Assembly: GCA_024689365.1 (NCBI GenBank) | Contig: JAILDQ010000048.1 | Location: forward strand, 1 to 32,135 | DNA length: 32,135 nucleotides | Source of the DNA: Treponema sp. | Lineage (GTDB): Bacteria; Spirochaetota; Spirochaetia; Treponematales; Treponemataceae | Direction of reading: 5' to 3' | Shown here: positions 7,524 to 20,366 of the stretch, one piece after another | Position numbering within the stretch: position 1 is the stretch's first letter | Layout: each line of letters opens with the position of its first letter | Notes under the pieces: generated by a model | What the model was told of the DNA's origin: nothing | What the model saw: the letters and a program-made list of their open reading frames with translations, nothing else | The model's database searches: none | Position numbers and translations under genes: made by a program

Positions 7524-8564
7524 ATGGACGGCGACAAAATCATTCTTAAGGCGGAAGACCTTGACGGCTATTTGACAGAAACGGACCAGGCGGATTTGAG
7601 GAATCTCGCCGCCATGTATGAGGAGACGATGAAAAGTTTTTCTCCTCTTGACCAGGAAAAAACAATCGCTCATTTTGACAAAATGGGCCACGTTATGCAA
7701 GACATCCTCAAAAAGCATCCTTCAATAAAAGTCTTTTCATTTGAGACGGAAGAGGGAAGCCACGCTGAGGCAAGCCACGTCATTTCAAAGCTCCGCAATA
7801 TAAAGACAGGAAACCACGAGTTTGTTTACTATACCCAGCGCGCTTACGAAATGCTTTTTAGATTGGCTTACACAGGCCCGCATTCAGACAAGAAAAATTA
7901 CATTGTAACGCCGACGCCTGTAAACAATCCCGTCCAGAACTTTGCGGTTCACAAGATTCCCGACATCGATTCTGAAATTTCAAATTCTGTTATGTGCGTA
8001 ATGCTTAGAGGCGCCTTGCTTCCCAGCATCATCATGTCAAAGGAAATCGAAGAGTATTCTTCAAACGGATACGTAACGCCGTTCGCGCTTTTTAAGATTA
8101 ACCGCGACGACACCAAGCAAGAAAACAACATGCAGTACATTCTTGACTTGAAAAAATCTTTCTTCAATCTTGAACAGCTTGACGGAAAGGACTTGATTTT
8201 CGCAGACCCGATGAACGCCACAGGCGGCTCTCTTGTAACTGTCGTGAAGTACTTGCAAAGCCAAGGCGTAAAGCCCCGCTCAATCAAGTTCTTCAACATC
8301 ATCTCGGCTCTTAAAGGCTCTTTGAGAATCAGCCGCGCCTTGGACAACTGCATTTGCTACACCTTGTGGATGGACCCAGCCTTGAACAAAAGCGCCTACA
8401 TCATGCCTGGCCTTGGCGACGCTGGAGACCGCTTGAACGGCTGCGACAAAAAGGAAAATCCCCGCAACATCATTCGTCTTATCGCAAACTACGGATCTAC
8501 AATCAACGGTTTGTACAACTCGCAGCTTGCCGAAATCGAATCAATGGTTTTGGATAAAAATTGA
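7524..8564 (+). CDS. Uracil phosphoribosyltransferase-like protein with N-terminal extension
   Basis: PRPP-loop-like [11 protein letters not shown] and uracil-binding-like [15 protein letters not shown] motifs; SD GGGGGA. Confidence 0.85.
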
Positions 8565-9281: not shown

Positions 9282-9319
9282 AAAAAAGCCTTTCGCTTTG
9301 CGGCGAAAGGCTTTTTTTT
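9282..9319. terminator. Bidirectional Rho-independent terminator
   Basis: GCCTTTCGC (9288-9296), loop TTTGCG, GCGAAAGGC (9303-9311), flanked by A6 (9282-9287) and T8 (9312-9319), between convergent genes. Confidence 0.93.
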
Positions 9320-10691
9320 ATTCTTCGTCTTCGTTTTCCCCATTGACAAATTTGCGGTATTTTTCAGGATTGACCCTAAAGGCGATTATTGGCGAGTCTG
9401 GATCGTCGCTTGCGTGAATCAAGGCTTGCTCGGCTTCGTTCTTCAAGCGGTCGGCGGAAATAAGACGGAGAGATCTGCTTGAGATGCCAATCAATGGCTT
9501 TGCCTTTACTTGGGCTGCTGACAAGGTTCCCTGCAAGTTTGAGTGCAAAACTTCGGCGCTTTGCAAAGCTTGGTCAATGTCATTGCGTTGGATGATTACG
9601 GCAAAGCCGTCTTCCTTGCATTCAAAAATAAAATCCTTAAATTGAAAGTAGTCCAGCATTGTTTGGCATACGTTTCCGTAATATTCGGACTCTTTTGTCA
9701 TTCCAGGAATTTGTATCATTGCCAAAGCCAAGTCTTGTTCGCTGGAAGCCGCTCTTATCAATTCCGATTCAAGCCGCGCGTCCAAGTATGATTCCCAGCC
9801 AAAGCCGCTGGCAGGCGAGAATAAGCCCTGGTCCTCGGATAGAGGAGGAATGCTTTCTTGTTCTTCTGTTTGAGAGCTTTCGTTTTGAACGGAGCCGTCT
9901 TCTGTTGCTTCGCTGGCCTTTTGGGCTTGCTGGTCCGCGTAGGCGTTTTCAAGAGGATTGAAGTCAACTTTTTCTTCGCTTTCTTGAGGCTCAGCTTCTT
10001 GCGCGGCGTTTTTTTCTGGAAGGACTTCGCTTTTCTCTTCGCTGACAGGCGGAAGGTCCTTCTTTTCTTCCGGAACTTCTTCTTGAACTTCTTCCGGAAC
10101 TTCTTCTGAACTTTCTTCTTCGTCAAAAAGGGATTCGCCAAAATCATCGTTGACGCTTGTCTTTTTAAAGTCAACGTCGCCTTCATAATCTTCTTTTTCG
10201 GAAGCGCTCAAGTACAAGTACATCAAGATTACGCATGCGGCCAAGGTTCCTGCCAAAACAATGATAAAGGCGATTTTTGCCCTGTAAAAAATTATCGCGG
10301 GAGCTACGGTGTAAATTGTGGCGTTCAGCCTAATGTCCGCGCCGTCGGAGCCTGAAATTCTAGTGCTGAAGGCTTTTACAAAGACCGACGCTTGCGGTTT
10401 TTCTTGCATGGGATAGACGTAAACCGCTTGGCCGTTGACTTCAAGCTTGATTGAATCAAAGATTTCTGGAGAGCCGACCGCGGAGTTGAATAGATTTAAG
10501 AATTCTTTTGAGCCGCTGGAATATATTCCGCTTGCTTCCGCGGTTCTGGAAGAAAGCTTTTCAAACTTCGCGCCGGCAGTTTTTAGTCCTGAATTGTAGT
10601 CTGAATAAATGCAAGCCGCGAAAACAATTATCGTCACAACAAAGACGCAAGCGATTGCAAGCGCCGCTAAAGTAATGCCCCTCTTTTTCAT
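9318..10691 (-). CDS. Membrane protein with degenerate GGDEF-like C-terminal domain
   Basis: N-terminal TM, second TM near residue 140, Glu-rich linker, then a GGDEF-fold-like region (WESYLDARLESELIRAASSEQDLALAMIQI...FKDFIFECKEDGFAVII...ISSRSLRLISADRLKNEAEQALIHA) without a GG[DE]EF signature. Confidence 0.7.
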   Translation of the reverse strand: MKKRGITLAALAIACVFVVTIIVFAACIYSDYNSGLKTAGAKFEKLSSRTAEASGIYSSGSKEFLNLFNSAVGSPEIFDSIKLEVNGQAVYVYPMQEKPQASVFVKAFSTRISGSDGADIRLNATIYTVAPAIIFYRAKIAFIIVLAGTLAACVILMYLYLSASEKEDYEGDVDFKKTSVNDDFGESLFDEEESSEEVPEEVQEEVPEEKKDLPPVSEEKSEVLPEKNAAQEAEPQESEEKVDFNPLENAYADQQAQKASEATEDGSVQNESSQTEEQESIPPLSEDQGLFSPASGFGWESYLDARLESELIRAASSEQDLALAMIQIPGMTKESEYYGNVCQTMLDYFQFKDFIFECKEDGFAVIIQRNDIDQALQSAEVLHSNLQGTLSAAQVKAKPLIGISSRSLRLISADRLKNEAEQALIHASDDPDSPIIAFRVNPEKYRKFVNGENEDEE

Positions 10692-12208
10692 ATCTTACTA
10701 TTATACAGTAGAATTGTTTTGAGCGCAAGTTTTTTCGCTTCTTTTGTTGACATTTTATTTTCCGCGTTTTTGTTGAGACAAAAGGCTGTGTAGGGTAAAA
10801 TCAAGGCGCTTTGAGGCATTATTTTTTCTTCTTTTTCAAGCGTTCTTAAGTTTTCTTCAAGGGCCTTTTTAAAATTCAAAAAGTCAAAATCGATTGGGTA
10901 AAAGACGCGGGGCTTTTCATTCTTTTGATTGTCTTTTATGCGACATTCATAGATTTTTTCTTTGCTGTAAGTCAAGTTTGGGCCCAAAAAAACTTCCAGA
11001 GAGTCCTGATAGCTTTTCATCAATTCGTTTTGCAAAAAGCCGCGTTCGTTCGCTTGCAGTCGGCTCCTGAACATAAGGCTTGTGTAAGCGTTTTGCCAAT
11101 TGTCAACGCGCCTTTGCTTTTTGCAGTAAAGGTCGTCCAAGTAGCTTCCTTTTGCGTAAGGCTTTCCCCCTGAATAGCCAAAATCCGCTCCGAAAATTTC
11201 TATCTCAGAAAAGCCCGCTTGAATCGCAAAGTCAAGGGCCGCAATGCTAACGGTTCCGCCGCCGCTATTGGTTTTGACAAAGGGATTTTTGCAAAAGGCG
11301 CTGGCGAATGAAATCAATGGATGGCCGCCGTTAATGAAAAGCAAATTTCCTTTTTTTTCATAAACGAATTTTGCTATTGAATGGTTTGCCGCCAAGTCCA
11401 AAATAAAAATCGTGTCCTTGTCAAAAGGCGCGTTAAAATGCTCCGCGCTCAAATATTGCGGATCTATCGAAACTGCTGCGTCAACCTTTATCTTGTGGCG
11501 TGACAAAATTTTGTAGCCAGTGTCTGTCGCGATTGTAAAATATTTTTCTCGTTCAGCCTTTATTTTTTCTATGCTTTTGTCGAGGCTTGGACCGGCTGCG
11601 ATAATGGCGGCTTTTTTGCTTGCGTCAATTGTTATTGGTTTGCAATCGATTTCTTGCATTTTCTTTAATGTATGCAAATTGCAAAAAAAGTTTTTTTGCC
11701 AAAGACCGCCAAAACGCGCTTGCGTGGAATAGTCAACGCTGATTTTTTTTAGGCATTTATTTATTCTTTCGATTAGGCTTTTATAAAGAGCCGGCTCTTC
11801 GTCGGCCCAAGAGCGGAGACACGCAATTTGCAAGTTTCCGTAATAGGCTGGAAAGTAGTTGTTTGCGAGCGCTTTTTCCAAATCGCTTGAATCTTCCGCG
11901 CAGCAAAAAATTACGTTCGGGTTTTCAAAAAGCCTTTTGACGCATGGAATTTTTTCTTTAAGGAAGTTCAAGTCTTCAAGGGATTTTTCGAGCGCGATTA
12001 TTTTGCATGAAGGATTTCGTTTTAAAAAGCTTTCGATATGGTAGCCGCCGCCAACTCCGATTATTATGGCGAATAAAATGCCGTCATTTTGAGTCAAAAA
12101 ATTTTGGGCTTCCCGCTCGGGATTGTATTTTGAGTGGGCGGCTTTTCCAGAATGAAAAATCGGAATTAAAGATTCGTTTTTTGCTTGGACAATTTCAGTG
12201 TAAATCAA
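10688..12208 (-). CDS. DUF115 / Maf-like (motility-associated glycosyltransferase-like) protein
   Basis: GVGGGYHIESFL; AAIIAAGPSLDKSIEKI; VDAAVSIDPQY; EIFGADFGYSGGKPYAKGSYLDDLY, all typical of the DUF115 family. Confidence 0.83.
   Translation of the reverse strand: MIYTEIVQAKNESLIPIFHSGKAAHSKYNPEREAQNFLTQNDGILFAIIIGVGGGYHIESFLKRNPSCKIIALEKSLEDLNFLKEKIPCVKRLFENPNVIFCCAEDSSDLEKALANNYFPAYYGNLQIACLRSWADEEPALYKSLIERINKCLKKISVDYSTQARFGGLWQKNFFCNLHTLKKMQEIDCKPITIDASKKAAIIAAGPSLDKSIEKIKAEREKYFTIATDTGYKILSRHKIKVDAAVSIDPQYLSAEHFNAPFDKDTIFILDLAANHSIAKFVYEKKGNLLFINGGHPLISFASAFCKNPFVKTNSGGGTVSIAALDFAIQAGFSEIEIFGADFGYSGGKPYAKGSYLDDLYCKKQRRVDNWQNAYTSLMFRSRLQANERGFLQNELMKSYQDSLEVFLGPNLTYSKEKIYECRIKDNQKNEKPRVFYPIDFDFLNFKKALEENLRTLEKEEKIMPQSALILPYTAFCLNKNAENKMSTKEAKKLALKTILLYNSKI
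10700..10728 (-). promoter_or_regulatory. Putative internal promoter TTGCGC-N17-TATAAT, 8 nt upstream of the 10691 start codon
   Basis: Minus strand: TTGCGC (10728-10723), 17-nt spacer, TATAAT (10705-10700). It lies inside the 3' end of the upstream DUF115 gene. Confidence 0.55.
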
Positions 12209-13716
12209 TTTGTCTTTCGTCCCCTTGCAAAAACTTCTGTAAAAAGCTTTTCGCTTTTTTCTTTTATCAAAAGCCCCCTCTTTTCTTTTTGGCTAAAATC
12301 CATTTCCCTTTGAGCCATGATAAAGTCTGCTGGAAAAATTTCGTTTAATAGCCAATCGCTTTTAAAGGCTTCTTTTGCGATTTCTTGAATTTTTTTGGCC
12401 CTTTCATTTTTGTTTAAAATTTCGCTTTCGGATTTTTCTTGAAATTCAAAGGCTTCGTTTTTGTCAGAGCAGCTTTCTAAAATCAATCTTTCAAATTCGC
12501 TTTGCTTTATGTCTTTGATTTGCCCAAGCGTTCTTTTGAATTTTCTTGAGCCGGTGATCCTGTAAACATTTCTATTTTCAAGATTTTTTGAGCAAAACCA
12601 TTGCGCGTAAATTTCAAGGCTTGGATTGTAAAACGAAGATTTAGCCTCGCGCGTTTCTTTTGCGCTTAGCCTAAAGTCTTTTCGCTCGTTTTCTGTGTCC
12701 AAAGCGTTTGGCCTTGCGTGGCTTTTGTCTATGAAATTTTGCAAGTCCAAGCCTGCGAAAAAAATGTTTTCATCGCTTTGAGAAAGAAAAAAATCCAAGG
12801 CGCTTCCGCTTACTGTTCCGTTTCTTTTAAAAAGGATTGGCTCAATCTTAAGCGCTTCAAAAAGCTTTTTTGAAAGCGCGTCGTCTTCGTAACAAAGAGG
12901 AAGAATTTTTTTTGACTTGAACAAATCTGAAGGGCAGGCGGCTTCGGGATTAAGGGCTAGGGGACAGGCCCATGAATTTTTTCTAAGCGCGTCCAAATGT
13001 TTTTTTGCCCAATAGCCGCCGTCAGAGCTTAGGCACAAATCGGCTTTTATATTGTTTGCTGTCAATGGTTTGATTGCGGAAGAAAGAGCGCATAAAAAAA
13101 CTCGCTCTCGATTTTTTATTATAGAAGGAATCGCGTCTTCAAGGCTTGGGCCTGACGCGCAAATCAATATCGGTTTTTCTATTTTTTTTAAGAAGCAGAT
13201 TTTATTTAAATTGTCAAAAAAAAGAAATTTGTTTTTTAGCCAACGCTTTCCAAAATATTCTCTTGTTGCCAAAAGGCTTTTGGCCTTTTCCATCGCGGCC
13301 TTTATTTCTTTCCAAGCCAAAGCGCTTTCTTCTTGCCAAATTTTCGCGCTTGCAGGCCATTCATAAAAAAGGCATTGAAAAAGATTTTCCTCGCCCAAAA
13401 GGTCGAACAAATTTTGGGAAAGGCTTTTGCCTTTTTTTAATGTAATGCAAAAATCCCAAGCCTTGTCAAATTGATGGAAATCGTCGCAATAACGAACGCA
13501 GGCGATTTTTGCGTCGGGAAAGCGCTTCCTCAAAAATGGAAGGCAGTAGCCAAGGCCTCCTTCTAAAATCACAAGGCAAGTTGGCTTAAAGTCAGCCTGA
13601 AGGTTTTGGACAAAACGCTCCGCTTCCGCTTCTGGATTGTAGGATGAGTGCAAAAATATTCCGTTGACTTTTGCGCTTTGGCTTGAGTTTTTGGCTGGAA
13701 GAAATTCGAGGGGCAA
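12205..13716 (-). CDS. Second DUF115 / Maf-like paralogue
   Basis: EGGLGYCLPFLRKRFP; PILICASGPSLEDAIPSI; ADLCLSSDGGYWAKKH; NGTVSGSALDFFL...FFAGLDLQNF. TTG start; 4-nt overlap with the next gene. Confidence 0.78.
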   Translation of the reverse strand: MPLEFLPAKNSSQSAKVNGIFLHSSYNPEAEAERFVQNLQADFKPTCLVILEGGLGYCLPFLRKRFPDAKIACVRYCDDFHQFDKAWDFCITLKKGKSLSQNLFDLLGEENLFQCLFYEWPASAKIWQEESALAWKEIKAAMEKAKSLLATREYFGKRWLKNKFLFFDNLNKICFLKKIEKPILICASGPSLEDAIPSIIKNRERVFLCALSSAIKPLTANNIKADLCLSSDGGYWAKKHLDALRKNSWACPLALNPEAACPSDLFKSKKILPLCYEDDALSKKLFEALKIEPILFKRNGTVSGSALDFFLSQSDENIFFAGLDLQNFIDKSHARPNALDTENERKDFRLSAKETREAKSSFYNPSLEIYAQWFCSKNLENRNVYRITGSRKFKRTLGQIKDIKQSEFERLILESCSDKNEAFEFQEKSESEILNKNERAKKIQEIAKEAFKSDWLLNEIFPADFIMAQREMDFSQKEKRGLLIKEKSEKLFTEVFARGRKTN

Positions 13717-13718
13717 AA

Positions 13719-14582
13719 TTAACCTCGCAACAAATAGTCTAAAATTTCTTCGTCGATTGATGAGTAGCCGGCGGTCAAAATGATTATTTTTTTAGCGGCT
13801 TCGTTTCCGATTAAATCGCTGTATTCAAGCGACAAATGTTCTTTTAGGATTTCGTCTTCTATGTCGGAGTTTATAAGCGCGGCGGCCTTGATTTCGCTAG
13901 TGTCTTCCGCGTAAATTGCCCCCGGCTTTGCGAAAAGTTTTTTTGTCTTGTAAAATATTTCTTCAAAGATTGTGTTTGTAAGAATATGCTGAATTGTCTG
14001 CTCGCTTATTTCAATGTTTTTGGTGGTTTCGTCCAGGGCTTTTTTTGTTGAAATAAGGCATAGGCGAGCCTTTCCCTTGTTTGTCAAATCTTTTAAGGCC
14101 TCAAGACTGGGCTCGGCAAGAAGGGGATTGTCGCTCTTGTTTAATATTGAAAGAAGCTCGCTTTTAAAAGAAGGGCCCACTCGCAAAAAGCCTGACGGAT
14201 TGAAAGAATATTCAAAAAAGATGTAGAGCTTTTCATTGTCTGTGATTTTCAGGATTCTAAAGGCTTTGACTTTTGAGCGCGCGTCTTTTCCCAAAAATTG
14301 GGTGAAGGCCGTGAAGTTTGGGCTTTCTCTGTCTAGGCTAATCCAAGATTCCGTGCGGGCGGAGCCTAGCCAAAAGTCTTTTGTTGATATGGAGCTGAAA
14401 ATAGATTGGGCGTCGATTCCATAGGCTTTTTTGAGCATCATTAAGCCGCCTTGTTCGCAAAAAACTCCGCAGCGTTCAAAGCCGTATTCCTCGGCCCATT
14501 CTTGGAATGTCATTTCAGAGGCCTCTTGAGCTTTGTTCAAGAGGCCTCCTTTTTTGCCTGTGGCTATGCTTAGCAAACCCAT
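13719..14582 (-). CDS. Conserved-looking protein of unknown function
   Basis: Complete 287-aa ORF 3 nt downstream of the acidic protein gene and 2 nt upstream of the DUF115 pair. No family recognised. Confidence 0.75.
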   Translation of the reverse strand: MGLLSIATGKKGGLLNKAQEASEMTFQEWAEEYGFERCGVFCEQGGLMMLKKAYGIDAQSIFSSISTKDFWLGSARTESWISLDRESPNFTAFTQFLGKDARSKVKAFRILKITDNEKLYIFFEYSFNPSGFLRVGPSFKSELLSILNKSDNPLLAEPSLEALKDLTNKGKARLCLISTKKALDETTKNIEISEQTIQHILTNTIFEEIFYKTKKLFAKPGAIYAEDTSEIKAAALINSDIEDEILKEHLSLEYSDLIGNEAAKKIIILTAGYSSIDEEILDYLLRG

Positions 14583-14585
14583 TTT

Positions 14586-17462
14586 TTATGAAAGTCCAAG
14601 CTCGTCAAAAAGTTTTTTGTATGTGACAAAGTGCTCGGATTTAGCAAACTCCGTGATTTTGTCTTCCGGCAAATTCTCAAGCAATTGATCCATATATGAA
14701 AGAACAGAAACGATTTCCGTCTTAAGGTTCTTTGAAATCGAAGTTGTTTCCATGGCGCTTGGAGCGGCAGCCACTGTCTTTTCAACTTCCGGCTCGGCGC
14801 TTGGCTCTTCTTCGATTGTTGGCTCGTCAACAGAACTTTCGTCCATGATTGTCGGCTCGGCGTTTTCTTCAACAGTCGGCTCTTCGGCGATTGTCGGCTC
14901 TGAGCTTTCTTCAGCGAACGCGTCTTCCGCAACAGGCTCGTCAAAGATTGACATGTCAACTTCTTCGCCTGACTCGTCTTGAGCAACAGTCGGGTCTTCC
15001 GTCAACGCGCTTTCGTCCAAGGTTTCAGGAACAGGCTCTTCGTTTGCGTCGTCGTCAAGGTTGAATTCGTCGTCCAAAGACTTTGAGTTTTCGTACGCGT
15101 CTTTTTCCGCCAAAGCGTCGTCAACGATGTCTGATTCAACAGCGTCGGCTTCGTCAAAGGCGGCGTGAATGTCGTCTCCTACAGAAACCGAAACGTCGTC
15201 GGTGTCTTCCTGCAAGGAAATGTTTTCCTTCATAATGTCGGAAACTGAATTTTCGTAAGCGTCTTTTTCGGCTAGGGCAGTGTCTGTGATTTCAGATTCA
15301 ACAGCGTCGGCCTCGTCAAAGGCGGCGTTGATGTCGTCTCCGATTGAAACTGAAACGTTGTCGGAATCTTCTTGCAATGAAACGTTTTCTTTTACAATGT
15401 CGTCAACGCTTACGACTGTTTCGTCGCCTTCGCTTTCGGTCGGCATGTCCTGTTCCATATATTCGATTTTTTCATCGTCAAGGGAATCGGCGATTGAAAC
15501 GTCTTCCTGCATGATTTCGTCAACGGCTTCCGCGTTAATGCTTTCTTCAGGAAGGCTGTCCATCGGCTCGTCCGTGTTTACGACAGAATCCATCAAATCG
15601 CTGCTTGAAGACTCAACCGTGATGTCGTCTTCAACTTTCGGAACGCTGATTTCTTCAGGAAGAACGTTTTCCTCGCCAAACTCGTCGGTGGTTCCGGCCA
15701 AGTCTTCAGGAGTGATTTCAGCGCTTTCGATTTTTGGCTCTTCCATGTCGGCTTCATTGAAGTTCATCGTGATGTCTTCGCCGCCGATTGAAGTTTCGTC
15801 AAATTCGGGCTCGGCCATTTCTTCAACGGCAGGCTCTTGGTCAAAGGAAACTTCTTCTTCAACAGGCTCTTCGTCTGTTTCAGGAGCCGCGTCTTCTGTG
15901 GAGAATTCCGCGTTGCTCAAAATGTTTGTCAACTCGTTGCCGCTTAATGCGATTGTGTCGTCCCCGTCGTCGTCGGCGCCAAAGAAGCCCATGTCTTCTT
16001 CTGGGGCGCTTTCAGTCTTCGCGGCTGGAATAGGGGCAGTTCCGGCCGCTGCAGTAGGGCGGTCTTTCAATTCCTCAAAGTCGCTCTTAAGATTTTTGAT
16101 TTCGTCTTTAAGGTTTGAAAGCTCGCCCATGATTTGGCTGAGGATTTCCTGGCCTTTTTGGTTGATTTCAAGATTCTGTTCCGCGTTTTGCGCGCTTTCG
16201 TTTTCAATGCTCATAGTCTCGCCTTCGTCAATTTCCGTGTCGTCAGAACTTTCAACATTGCCCATTACAACATCCTGCACGCTGGGGACTTTTGAATCGT
16301 CGTCAGCTGAAACTTTCATGTCGTAATCAACAACCTCTTTCTTCGGAGCGCTTCCGCCGTCCGGTCCGTTCGTCATTCCAATGTTAGCGTCGTCGTCGTC
16401 AAATCCAAAGTCGCTCAAGTCGATTTCTTCTGTGTCGCCAGACAAAGCTTCTTGCGGCGCGGCAGGCTTTGGACTTTGGTCATTTCCAAAATTGTCGAAC
16501 ATATCGTCCGCGGAAGCCGTCGCTTCCGCAACAGGCGCGGCTGCTTCAGGAGCCGGGCTTTCCTCGTCTTCTTCCTGAATGATTTCCTCGGCGTTGTCGT
16601 CAAAGCTTACGTCGATGTCAAGGGATTTTTGGTCCTCGATTTCTTCAGGCTTTGTTTCTTTCTTGGCGGGTGCGTCGTCCATGAAGGCGCTCAAGTCAAC
16701 GTCGCCGTCTGAACCTCCGTCCATAAAGGCGCTGAGGTCAACGTCGCCGTCGGGGGCGGAGCTTGCGTCTGAGCCGCCGTCCATAAAAGCGTCCAAGTCA
16801 ACTTCTCCGTCGGGAGTTGAGTCTACGCTTGAAGAATCGCTCATAAAGTCATCCAGGTCAACTTCGCCGTCAGGAATGTCGTCAAGGCTGACTTCTTCCG
16901 TGGCGCCTGTGTCGGCCGGAATGTCGGCGGCCGTTTCTTCCGCGGCGCTTTCTTCAGGAAGGCTTTCGTCTGTCGTGATGTCAAGGCCGTCAATGTTAAA
17001 GTCGTCCATGCCGTCTTCAACTGCCGGCTCTTCAACGGCGGCTTCTTCCGTCGGGATTTCTTGGTTTTCAGTTATGTTCAAAAGTTCGTCAGGGCTAAGG
17101 GTTGTGTCGGCGTTTTCGTCTTCGCCGCCTTCCATGCTTCCTGTTATGTTTGAAAGTTCGTCAGGGCTGAGGGTTGTGTCTGTGTTCTCGTCTTCTTCAA
17201 CGCCCGAGCTTTCTTCCGCGGGGATGTCGATGTCAATGTCAAGGTCGGAGATTTCGTTTTGTTCGGGGGCAGGGGATTCGTTCAAGTCTTCCGCGGTCAT
17301 CGGGAATTCGATGTCGTTGAACATGTCGTCGTCGGAAGGCAAATCGATGTCGTCAATCGCGTTTTCAGGAATTTCGTTGGAGTCGCCTTTTATGTCTTTA
17401 GGCGTGTTTTTCACCCAAACGCCGTATTTGTCGAGGTCTTTTGAATCAGTTGAATCGCTCAT
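14586..17462 (-). CDS. Large acidic repeat-containing protein (958 aa) with central coiled-coil
   Basis: SD AAGGGGAA upstream of ATG; very Asp/Glu-rich; internal repeats; coiled-coil-like QEILSQIMGELSNLKDEIKNLKSDFEELKDR; distinct C-terminus TEIVSVLSYMDQLLENLPEDKITEFAKSEHFVTYKKLFDELGLS. Confidence 0.85.
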   Translation of the reverse strand: MSDSTDSKDLDKYGVWVKNTPKDIKGDSNEIPENAIDDIDLPSDDDMFNDIEFPMTAEDLNESPAPEQNEISDLDIDIDIPAEESSGVEEDENTDTTLSPDELSNITGSMEGGEDENADTTLSPDELLNITENQEIPTEEAAVEEPAVEDGMDDFNIDGLDITTDESLPEESAAEETAADIPADTGATEEVSLDDIPDGEVDLDDFMSDSSSVDSTPDGEVDLDAFMDGGSDASSAPDGDVDLSAFMDGGSDGDVDLSAFMDDAPAKKETKPEEIEDQKSLDIDVSFDDNAEEIIQEEDEESPAPEAAAPVAEATASADDMFDNFGNDQSPKPAAPQEALSGDTEEIDLSDFGFDDDDANIGMTNGPDGGSAPKKEVVDYDMKVSADDDSKVPSVQDVVMGNVESSDDTEIDEGETMSIENESAQNAEQNLEINQKGQEILSQIMGELSNLKDEIKNLKSDFEELKDRPTAAAGTAPIPAAKTESAPEEDMGFFGADDDGDDTIALSGNELTNILSNAEFSTEDAAPETDEEPVEEEVSFDQEPAVEEMAEPEFDETSIGGEDITMNFNEADMEEPKIESAEITPEDLAGTTDEFGEENVLPEEISVPKVEDDITVESSSSDLMDSVVNTDEPMDSLPEESINAEAVDEIMQEDVSIADSLDDEKIEYMEQDMPTESEGDETVVSVDDIVKENVSLQEDSDNVSVSIGDDINAAFDEADAVESEITDTALAEKDAYENSVSDIMKENISLQEDTDDVSVSVGDDIHAAFDEADAVESDIVDDALAEKDAYENSKSLDDEFNLDDDANEEPVPETLDESALTEDPTVAQDESGEEVDMSIFDEPVAEDAFAEESSEPTIAEEPTVEENAEPTIMDESSVDEPTIEEEPSAEPEVEKTVAAAPSAMETTSISKNLKTEIVSVLSYMDQLLENLPEDKITEFAKSEHFVTYKKLFDELGLS
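15093..15416 (-). repeat. Two tandem 162-nt (54-aa) repeats in the acidic protein gene
   Basis: Plus-strand landmark GATTCAACAGCGTCGGC[TC]TCGTCAAAGGCGGCG at 15133 and 15295 (period 162). Protein: DI[MV]KEN[IV]SLQED[TS]D[DN]VSVS[VI]GDDI[HN]AAFDEADAVES..ALAEKDAYENS. Confidence 0.85.
16679..16871 (-). repeat. Four short DG[DE]VDLxxFM repeats in the acidic protein gene
   Basis: 31-nt units at 16679, 16721, 16781 and 16841 (plus strand, e.g. CCATAAAGGCGCTGAGGTCAACGTCGCCGTC), spaced 42/60/60 nt. Confidence 0.88.
17071..17195 (-). repeat. Two DTTLSPDEL[SL]NIT repeats, 72-nt period
   Basis: GTTATGTT[CT][AG]AAAGTTCGTCAGGGCT[AG]AGGGTTGTGTC at 17071 and 17143. A diverged third motif, TIALSGNELTNIL, occurs further along the protein. 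Confidence 0.83.
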
Positions 17463-17615
17463 ATATATTCCCCTTTATAAACTTTTCATTATATTATCGG
17501 CCTTTATTGACAAAAACCGCGCATTTTTCTTTATACTTTTATTCATTATATTGTATCACATATTTAAAAAAAATCCAATAAGAAATTTGATTTTTTTTCC
17601 GATAATGAATTCATA

Positions 17616-18689: not shown

Positions 18690-19529
18690 TTATTCGTTTT
18701 CCAGCTCAAACTTGCGCTTTAAGTAAACGTATTCGTAGAGAATGTCGTCAAAATTCTCGTAGCCAAAAATCTTGTGGACTTTTGTGATTCTCCATTGCTT
18801 TATGTTGTCAACGTGGGGATAAGGAAGCCAAAAAAGCCTTTTTGAAAAATGCCTTATAACTGTATCTTTGTATAGGAATTTTTGATCGTTAAAGCGCTGC
18901 TTCAAGATTTTTTGTTTAGTCGTGCTTAAAATGATTGCGCTTTCGTCGGCGAACAGGAGTTTTCTGTGTTTCAAGATTTCCCTGGCTTTTTTCAATAGGC
19001 CTGTTTTTTTGCATTCCTCAAGGTTGAACAAAATCACGCCGGCGTTGATGAACTTCCTTCTAAAAAAGAGGATGATTTTTCCGTAATGGTCGCGGGCGGC
19101 GGCGTATTCATAGCCCTCGATGTCTGTGTCCCACAAAAGCCTTACGTCACGGTTGAACAAGAGGTCGATGTCAAGATACAAAAGTTTTTTTGGCATGTCG
19201 GGAACCATGTCCGCGAAAAGCCTTATGAGCGTGTATGGTGAGCAGTAGCATTGCTCGTTGGGGCAGGAATCAAATTCCGCTTTGTAAATGTCGGTCACGT
19301 CGGTTTTTGTCACTTTGTTTTGCGGGTTGTAAGATTTTGCAGTCTTGTCCAAAAAGCCTATCATTTTGTCGCTTATGCAAGTGTATTCGGGCTTTATGTG
19401 GGAAACGTCCATTGTCCAAACATGAAAGTTAAAGGGCTCGTCGCTTTTTGTTCGCTTTAAAATTGAAAGCATGCAAGTCAAGATTCCGTCAAAAATCTTT
19501 GAGTTTCCGCAAAACAAAATGTCAATCAT
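18690..19529 (-). CDS. Glycosyltransferase family 8-like protein
   Basis: LLYLDIDLLFNRDVRLLWDTDIEGYEYAAARD (DxD) and FINAGVILFNLEE, typical of GT8. Confidence 0.87.
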   Translation of the reverse strand: MIDILFCGNSKIFDGILTCMLSILKRTKSDEPFNFHVWTMDVSHIKPEYTCISDKMIGFLDKTAKSYNPQNKVTKTDVTDIYKAEFDSCPNEQCYCSPYTLIRLFADMVPDMPKKLLYLDIDLLFNRDVRLLWDTDIEGYEYAAARDHYGKIILFFRRKFINAGVILFNLEECKKTGLLKKAREILKHRKLLFADESAIILSTTKQKILKQRFNDQKFLYKDTVIRHFSKRLFWLPYPHVDNIKQWRITKVHKIFGYENFDDILYEYVYLKRKFELENE

Positions 19530-20319
19530 CGCTTTTTTCCTTTTTTATGTATTGAATTATCTCAATGTCGCTGTTTTGGCTTCTTTTTGTCATCGCCTCG
19601 TAAACCCTGTTCCTCAAGTCAAGGCGCGCTTCTTTGCTTGGAAGGTTTCCGTCGGCGTAAAAGGGGCCGTCAACGTAAGTTACCATTCTTGGATTTTTTG
19701 AAAAGCGCCTTTTTTGGTAAGTGTTGGTGAAGCAGTAAACCGCCGCCTTGAATTGCATGGGGTACCTAAACGACAGGTCTGAAAAAGGCCGTATTTTTGT
19801 GTAGTAAGGCCAAATGTGCGCCTCTGGATAAACGCAAACGGCTTGCTTTTCCTCGGCCCTGACCTTTAGAATGTTCATAAAATTTTTGGCGGCCCCCAAG
19901 TTGTCGGGAAGCGGAAGGGCGCCCAAAATTCTTGTTTTCAATCCCAAGCCCGGTATGGAAACGTTGTTGGCATGGACAATTACGTAGACACCTTTTGGGA
20001 AGGCGACAAAAGTCGGAATCAAGGCGTCGGCGATTGGATTGGTGTGGTTTCCGAAAATGTAAAGGGGCCCTTTTGGAGCCTTTTTCATAACGGCGCGGTT
20101 TACGATTTTGTGCCTGTATTTTAATTTTAGCCAAAGCCAGGCGATTGGCATTGAAAAAATCCTGTACCAAAAAAAGCGCTTGGCGTTCCAGCAAAAGCCG
20201 CTTTTTCCGTAGTCGTAGTTTTGGTCAATCGGAATGGCTTTTATTTGCATTTCAGAAAATTCGTCGTTCAATTCGTCGGAGTAATAGATGACGCGCTTTT
20301 CTTCTTGCTTCTTTTTCAT
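19522..20319 (-). CDS. PlsC-like 1-acylglycerol-3-phosphate acyltransferase family protein
   Basis: GPLYIFGNHTNPIADALIP...GLGLKTRILGALPLPDN...AVCVYPEAHIWPYY. Start placed at ATG 20319 (MKKKQEEKR). Confidence 0.75.
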   Translation of the reverse strand: MKKKQEEKRVIYYSDELNDEFSEMQIKAIPIDQNYDYGKSGFCWNAKRFFWYRIFSMPIAWLWLKLKYRHKIVNRAVMKKAPKGPLYIFGNHTNPIADALIPTFVAFPKGVYVIVHANNVSIPGLGLKTRILGALPLPDNLGAAKNFMNILKVRAEEKQAVCVYPEAHIWPYYTKIRPFSDLSFRYPMQFKAAVYCFTNTYQKRRFSKNPRMVTYVDGPFYADGNLPSKEARLDLRNRVYEAMTKRSQNSDIEIIQYIKKEKSDD

Positions 20320-20366
20320 AGGCGAAACTCTATCATTTTTTCTAAAAAAAGTATACACTTGCCTTC

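Follow-up and report, generated by a model that had tools for sequence, protein, structure and literature searches.

A conserved five-gene operon of spirochaetes with two DUF115/Maf-like genes: a candidate module for flagellin glycosylation and hand-over

Spirochaete motility rests on periplasmic flagella, and the FlaB flagellins of Treponema denticola bear a 450.2-Da glycan that is essential for filament assembly (PMC9481697), in agreement with the initial annotation of the DNA studied here, which had stated that treponemal flagellins are glycosylated. No name for the transferases that attach this glycan was found in the open-access literature. The question is therefore which process is served by a compact operon of Treponema sp. 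in which two DUF115/Maf-like genes are accompanied by a large acidic protein, a 287-aa protein and a membrane protein. The operon lies in a window of 32,135 nt (the whole stretch of DNA analysed; contig 35 of a 2.51-Mb draft genome in 337 contigs). It had been proposed to link flagellar or envelope glycan modification to an acidic scaffold and a nucleotide-sensor-like membrane protein.

Layout and conservation of the locus

The five minus-strand ORFs, their gaps and overlaps and the terminator behind them were all found again in the window (Table 1). The genes occupy 9318-17462, are transcribed in the order ACID (the acidic protein), P287, DUFa, DUFb and gene 5, and are separated by 3, 2, −4 and −4 nt, a spacing that suggests co-transcription. 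The terminator is common to the operon and a convergent plus-strand TPR gene, and an Rfam search gave zero hits. Nearby, a UPRT-like protein (7524-8564) carries about 78 extra residues ahead of its UPRT domain and falls short of the equivalog cut-offs for uracil phosphoribosyltransferase.

Table 1. Positions of the operon, its flanking elements and the conserved parts of ACID in the window
Feature	Position	Strand	Description
Bidirectional intrinsic terminator	9282-9317		15-16 bp hairpin, T runs on both sides
Gene 5	9318-10691	−	457 aa, two TM segments, apparently catalytically dead GGDEF domain
DUFb	10688-12208	−	506 aa, TTG start, second putative DUF115/Maf-like enzyme
DUFa	12205-13716	−	503 aa, TTG start, first putative DUF115/Maf-like enzyme
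P287	13719-14582	−	287 aa, MGLL-type, best read as degenerate GAF plus degenerate GGDEF
ACID	14586-17462	−	958 aa, acidic, mostly low-complexity, first operon gene
ACID C-terminal domain	14589-14729	−	47 aa, conserved in most of the phylum, one copy per genome, three short helices predicted
ACID island DDxDxTIALSGxEL-NIL--A-F	15903-15974	−	conserved; looser copies at 17073-17186
ACID coiled-coil-like island	16062-16169	−	short; from the family conservation line
ACID N-terminal motif (E/D)LD-Y-GVWVK	17409-17438	−	alignment of 41 family members; also in class-level relatives
Divergent intergenic region	17463-17615		presumed promoter region for the operon and the DivIC gene

The window was compared with gene neighbourhoods from another 48 members of its family, in which ORFs were called using iterated profiles (49 loci in total). 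All five genes stood on one strand and in the same order in 45 of the 49 loci, among them those of T. pallidum- and T. denticola-like genomes; among the remaining four, three were truncated at contig ends and one was without gene 5. The median gaps in the family loci were −1, 2, −4 and −4 nt. Since order and strand are kept so widely, the arrangement is not due to chance; the linked module proposed initially is borne out, with a synteny that extends across the family and is not limited to the strain. In most other families of the class, DUF115 genes, usually as a pair, are close to ACID. Gene 5 is the loosest member of the module, because in some of these class-level loci it is absent or set apart by a gene on the opposite strand.

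The five-gene set is present in T. pallidum at 192564-199665 on the minus strand. Its DUFa (470 aa, 195453-196865; L073:7454-8866) agrees in length and position with TP0177 of the Chicago strain (470 aa, 195519-196931; PMC3373638) and is thus identified as TP0177, for which the published Nichols and Chicago annotations give lengths of 470 and 436 aa (PMC3373638). In this orthologue the PF01973 match is shortened and the GPSL motif is lost. Gene order would make ACID TP0179, P287 TP0178, gene 5 TP0172/173 and DUFb TP0174-176, genes described elsewhere as merged (PMC3265458). TP0179 is reported to vary in length (PMC11318916) and to carry non-synonymous variants that are fixed in lineages (PMC11371664), a variation as expected of a disordered chain if TP0179 is ACID (L073:9783-11666). 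TP0183, the reported DnaA binder in the T. pallidum interactome, falls outside the operon by gene order. A functional study of the operon was not found in the open-access literature using T. pallidum gene numbers and DUF115.

Products of the five genes

Both DUF115 genes matched PF01973 (MptE-like) above its cut-off of 34.6 bits (DUFb, E 5e-30, 104.9 bits; DUFa, E 3e-17, 63.2 bits), in support of the DUF115/Maf relationship assigned earlier. The Maf N-terminal domain PF20157 scored 13.5 bits in DUFb against a cut-off of 23.5, gave no match in DUFa and reached its cut-off in a distant relative (L135); the proteins are hence termed Maf-like, and neither is termed a Maf. DUFb also gave a weak match to the solved Maf 5mu5 (E 0.002). 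Over 60 loci, the first gene is characterised by the motifs AsGPSL, DGG-wA-Hl, GTVsgtA and GLDl and the second by AGPsLd, siD-Q-S-Hf, GtVt and GaDF-Y--gK-Y, and the window copies of both keep the core motifs. Judged from their sequences, DUFa and DUFb are two ancient, distinct, class-wide paralogues. They share the PF01973 core, the GPSL and late G-D motifs and a cytoplasmic location with Maf of A. caviae (Maf1) and Magnetospirillum (5mu5), and in both cases the genes co-occur with flagella and a NeuB synthase. Unlike Maf, they form two distinct short tandem paralogues with PF20157 below cut-off or absent. As far as a literature search shows, no known Maf system is reported to share an operon with an acidic protein and a pair of dead GGDEF-type proteins. 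Two further DUF115 genes are present in the genome, on contigs 15 and 57.

ACID is composed of 31.5% D+E and 3.8% K+R, and its gene contains a 162-nt tandem duplication at 15084-15402. Uncut family members range from about 520 to 1730 aa, with conservation confined to four islands, namely the N-terminal motif, the coiled-coil-like stretch, the TIALSG island and the C-terminal 47 residues. Searches gave no Pfam match above cut-off, no NCBIfam match and nothing usable in PHROGs. A single match to the C-terminal profile was present in 201 of the 296 spirochaete genomes sampled over the phylum, representing 116 of 133 genera, and no second copy was detected at E < 0.3 in six genomes. This part of the protein was modelled as three helices (mean pLDDT 74); profile comparison and Foldseek gave no PDB match, and it matched no known family. 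This 47-residue domain, conserved in most spirochaete genera, was previously without a family. Given its acidic composition and its short conserved motifs, the chain could be the scaffold that had been envisaged. ACID is not homologous to FliS, and the idea that its C-terminus mimics the FliS-binding C-terminal end of flagellin was rejected, as profile comparison showed no similarity.

For P287, direct searches of Pfam (including GAF), NCBIfam and PHROGs gave nothing usable; the protein, earlier labelled 'unknown', is nevertheless not an orphan. Its family profile aligned over 284 columns to the gene next after ACID in the other families at class level (98.6% probability, E 1.3e-15), a group that contains three divergent sequences from the Treponema family itself and thus bridges by design. 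The class-level group in turn matched the post-ACID genes of distant spirochaetes with 96.6% probability (E 5e-10), and Pfam recognises GAF and, with weaker scores, GGDEF in several of these genes. On the basis of this two-step profile chain, P287 is best read as a reduced protein with a degenerate GAF and a degenerate GGDEF domain. It resembles the GAF-GAF-GGDEF proteins of distant spirochaetes in its place after ACID, in profile continuity and in the MGL(L)-KA start common to most of these genes; the Treponema form differs in being shorter, with one GAF-like unit and below Pfam detection. An AlphaFold model built from three sequences (pLDDT 36) allowed no reading of the fold. The 5′ coding part of the gene contains an almost perfect inverted repeat of 14 bp around a 3-nt loop (14518-14548); it is shared with the closest relative (L033) and absent from the others examined, and was rejected as a conserved RNA element.

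In the gene 5 product, a pair of TM segments (aa 3-33 and aa 126-164) encloses an extracytoplasmic part of about 100 aa; an acidic linker and a GGDEF-type C-terminus follow. The Pfam GGDEF match was below cut-off (E 0.011), and profile comparison established homology to diguanylate cyclases (5euh, E 1.5e-9), consistent with the degenerate-GGDEF membrane protein described initially. In comparison with the GGDEF domains of 5euh, DosC and PleD, the GG(D/E)EF signature is replaced by x-x-D-G-F, and the substrate-binding/GHxxGD segment is deleted (about nine residues). The protein is very unlikely to be a diguanylate cyclase from its sequence, and because signature and substrate-binding part are both lost, it appears to be no enzyme and is not recognisable as a nucleotide sensor either; the sensor-like role first suggested finds no support. 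Homology between P287 and gene 5 was considered and was not detectable by direct comparison (0.5% probability). Two 'hypothetical' genes can accordingly be described as probable dead GAF/GGDEF proteins.

Association with flagella

PF01973 was absent from 53 of the 296 genomes, namely 34/34 Borreliaceae (f6, identified from flagellin), 15/16 genomes of family f12 and 4/4 of genus g40; the families of unlisted absentees were derived by subtraction. Family f12 appears to be Sphaerochaeta-like (no FliG), and f24 Brachyspira-like by its flagellin. FliG_C was missing in each of the 16 f12 genomes, as well as in two incomplete MAGs with flagellin hits, and genus g40 lacked flagellin in 4/4 genomes and gave only weak FliG hits. 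G420, a genome of the flagellate sister genus in the family of g40, carries the module along with flagellins and five copies of DUF115. These profiles indicate two non-flagellate lineages that are both without DUF115, which is missing in 19 of 20 non-flagellate genomes and also from the flagellate Borreliaceae. A Fisher test of DUF115 against flagella gave 5e-15 with genomes treated as independent and uncorrected for phylogeny, a value that overstates the link because only two independent losses stand against one exception clade.

ACID itself is missing from all 34 Borreliaceae, from f12, from most of f24 and from three of the four g40 genomes. G380, a genome of genus g40 in which no flagellin was detected, encodes a 210-aa mini-ACID (L113:5877-6509) with the N-terminal motif, the coil and an intact C-terminal domain and with neither P287 nor DUF115 alongside; ACID may therefore have another role.

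Gene neighbourhoods in distant spirochaetes provide a second line of evidence. FliS, a single-copy gene in 18/18 genomes checked, lies directly 5′ of ACID in four loci from three distant families (L097, L115, L126 and L128; all Pfam-confirmed). FapA lies 3′ of the ACID partner gene in L097, L115, L127 and L128 (Pfam-confirmed in L115), and FliM lies two genes 3′ in two other families (L137 and L138; both Pfam-confirmed). This adjacency to FliS or FliM was seen in distant families only, where no DUF115 pair adjoins ACID. Together with the phylogenetic profile, these neighbours substantiate the flagellar connection that had been surmised. All DUF115-bearing genomes checked, T. pallidum among them, contained a NeuB-family synthase, and none was found in the one Borreliaceae genome checked. 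The FlaB glycan of T. denticola is reportedly a pseudaminic-type nonulosonic acid.

The flagellin of Aeromonas is glycosylated by Maf1 in the cytoplasm, and in its glycosylated form it passes from Maf1 to FlaJ, the homologue of FliS (PMC4065374). As Maf-like genes and FliS alternate beside ACID and P287 in spirochaetes, ACID may serve such a hand-over.

A tentative reading and its alternatives

We favour the reading of the operon as a scaffolded module for Maf-type O-glycosylation and hand-over of flagellin, with a confidence that remains somewhat short of probable. DUFa and DUFb would be cytoplasmic Maf-type transferases that add a nonulosonic-acid-type sugar to flagellin. ACID, as a long flexible acidic chain, would hold the transferases together through its motifs and its three-helix C-terminal domain, and perhaps flagellin or FliS too. 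P287 would act as a soluble pseudo-GAF/pseudo-GGDEF adaptor for ACID, and gene 5, as a membrane pseudo-GGDEF protein, would anchor the assembly at the inner membrane, from where glycosylated flagellin would pass to FliS and then to the flagellar type III exporter. Counted in favour of this reading are the gene order in 45/49 loci, the co-loss of PF01973 with flagella, the linkage to FliS, FapA and FliM, the co-occurrence with NeuB and the Aeromonas and T. denticola precedents. Counted against it are the lack of ACID in the flagellate Borreliaceae, the Brachyspira-like genomes that keep DUF115 mostly without ACID, the restriction of FliS adjacency to three of the distant families sampled, the location of the flagellin genes of this genome on other contigs and the mini-ACID of flagellin-less G380; moreover, flagellin could instead be glycosylated by the products of the two DUF115 genes outside the operon. 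From the earlier interpretation, the linked module, the Maf relation and the flagellar tie are thus retained, and nucleotide sensing by gene 5 is dropped. The analysis offers candidate genes for a species that is amenable to genetics and for T. pallidum (TP0177 for DUFa and, by gene order, TP0179 for ACID). In a broader form, which we regard as speculative and rather unlikely, ACID and its MGLL partner would be an undescribed, near phylum-wide scaffold of periplasmic-flagellum biogenesis, in which dead GAF/GGDEF adaptors and a disordered acidic chain unite Maf-type transferases and FliS and couple glycosylation to export at the membrane.

Among the alternatives, an organiser of the cell pole or export gate fares best, although we consider it doubtful. 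Here an ACID-P287 core would position flagellar assembly, or else FliS, at the membrane or cell pole, with the DUF115 genes as passengers in some classes. The ACID-P287 pair does outlast the linkage to DUF115, for in distant families it stands beside FliS, FapA or FliM instead, and dead GAF/GGDEF domains suit an adaptor better than an enzyme; however, DUF115 genes are nearly always nearby within the class, and G380 retains a mini-ACID without flagellin.

Less probable still is glycosylation of the envelope or of lipoproteins, in which the DUF115 enzymes would act on a different acceptor in the cytoplasm or envelope and the correlation with flagella would reflect genome reduction among Sphaerochaeta-like and Borrelia-like lineages. 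It would account for the absence of flagellins from the operon, the neighbouring outer-membrane lipoprotein of the TP0453 family, the additional DUF115 genes in the genome and the GT8 glycosyltransferase and acyltransferase genes past Sua5 (18690-20358), which are present in close relatives only and replaced by different genes elsewhere; yet DUF115 was co-lost in two separate non-flagellate lineages, and the linkage to FliS and FliM also argues against it.

A cell-division or housekeeping operon tied to the divergent DivIC and Sua5 genes, which lie upstream in most loci of the family, is highly improbable, since distant families have other neighbours (ATP synthase genes, FliS), Borreliaceae divide without the module and the ZipA match of gene 5 sits in the acidic linker, far below cut-off. 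The apparent ATP synthase genes, identified by eye as gamma, beta and epsilon, precede the ACID-MGLL pair in five loci of distant families (L096, L098, L130, L133 and L134).
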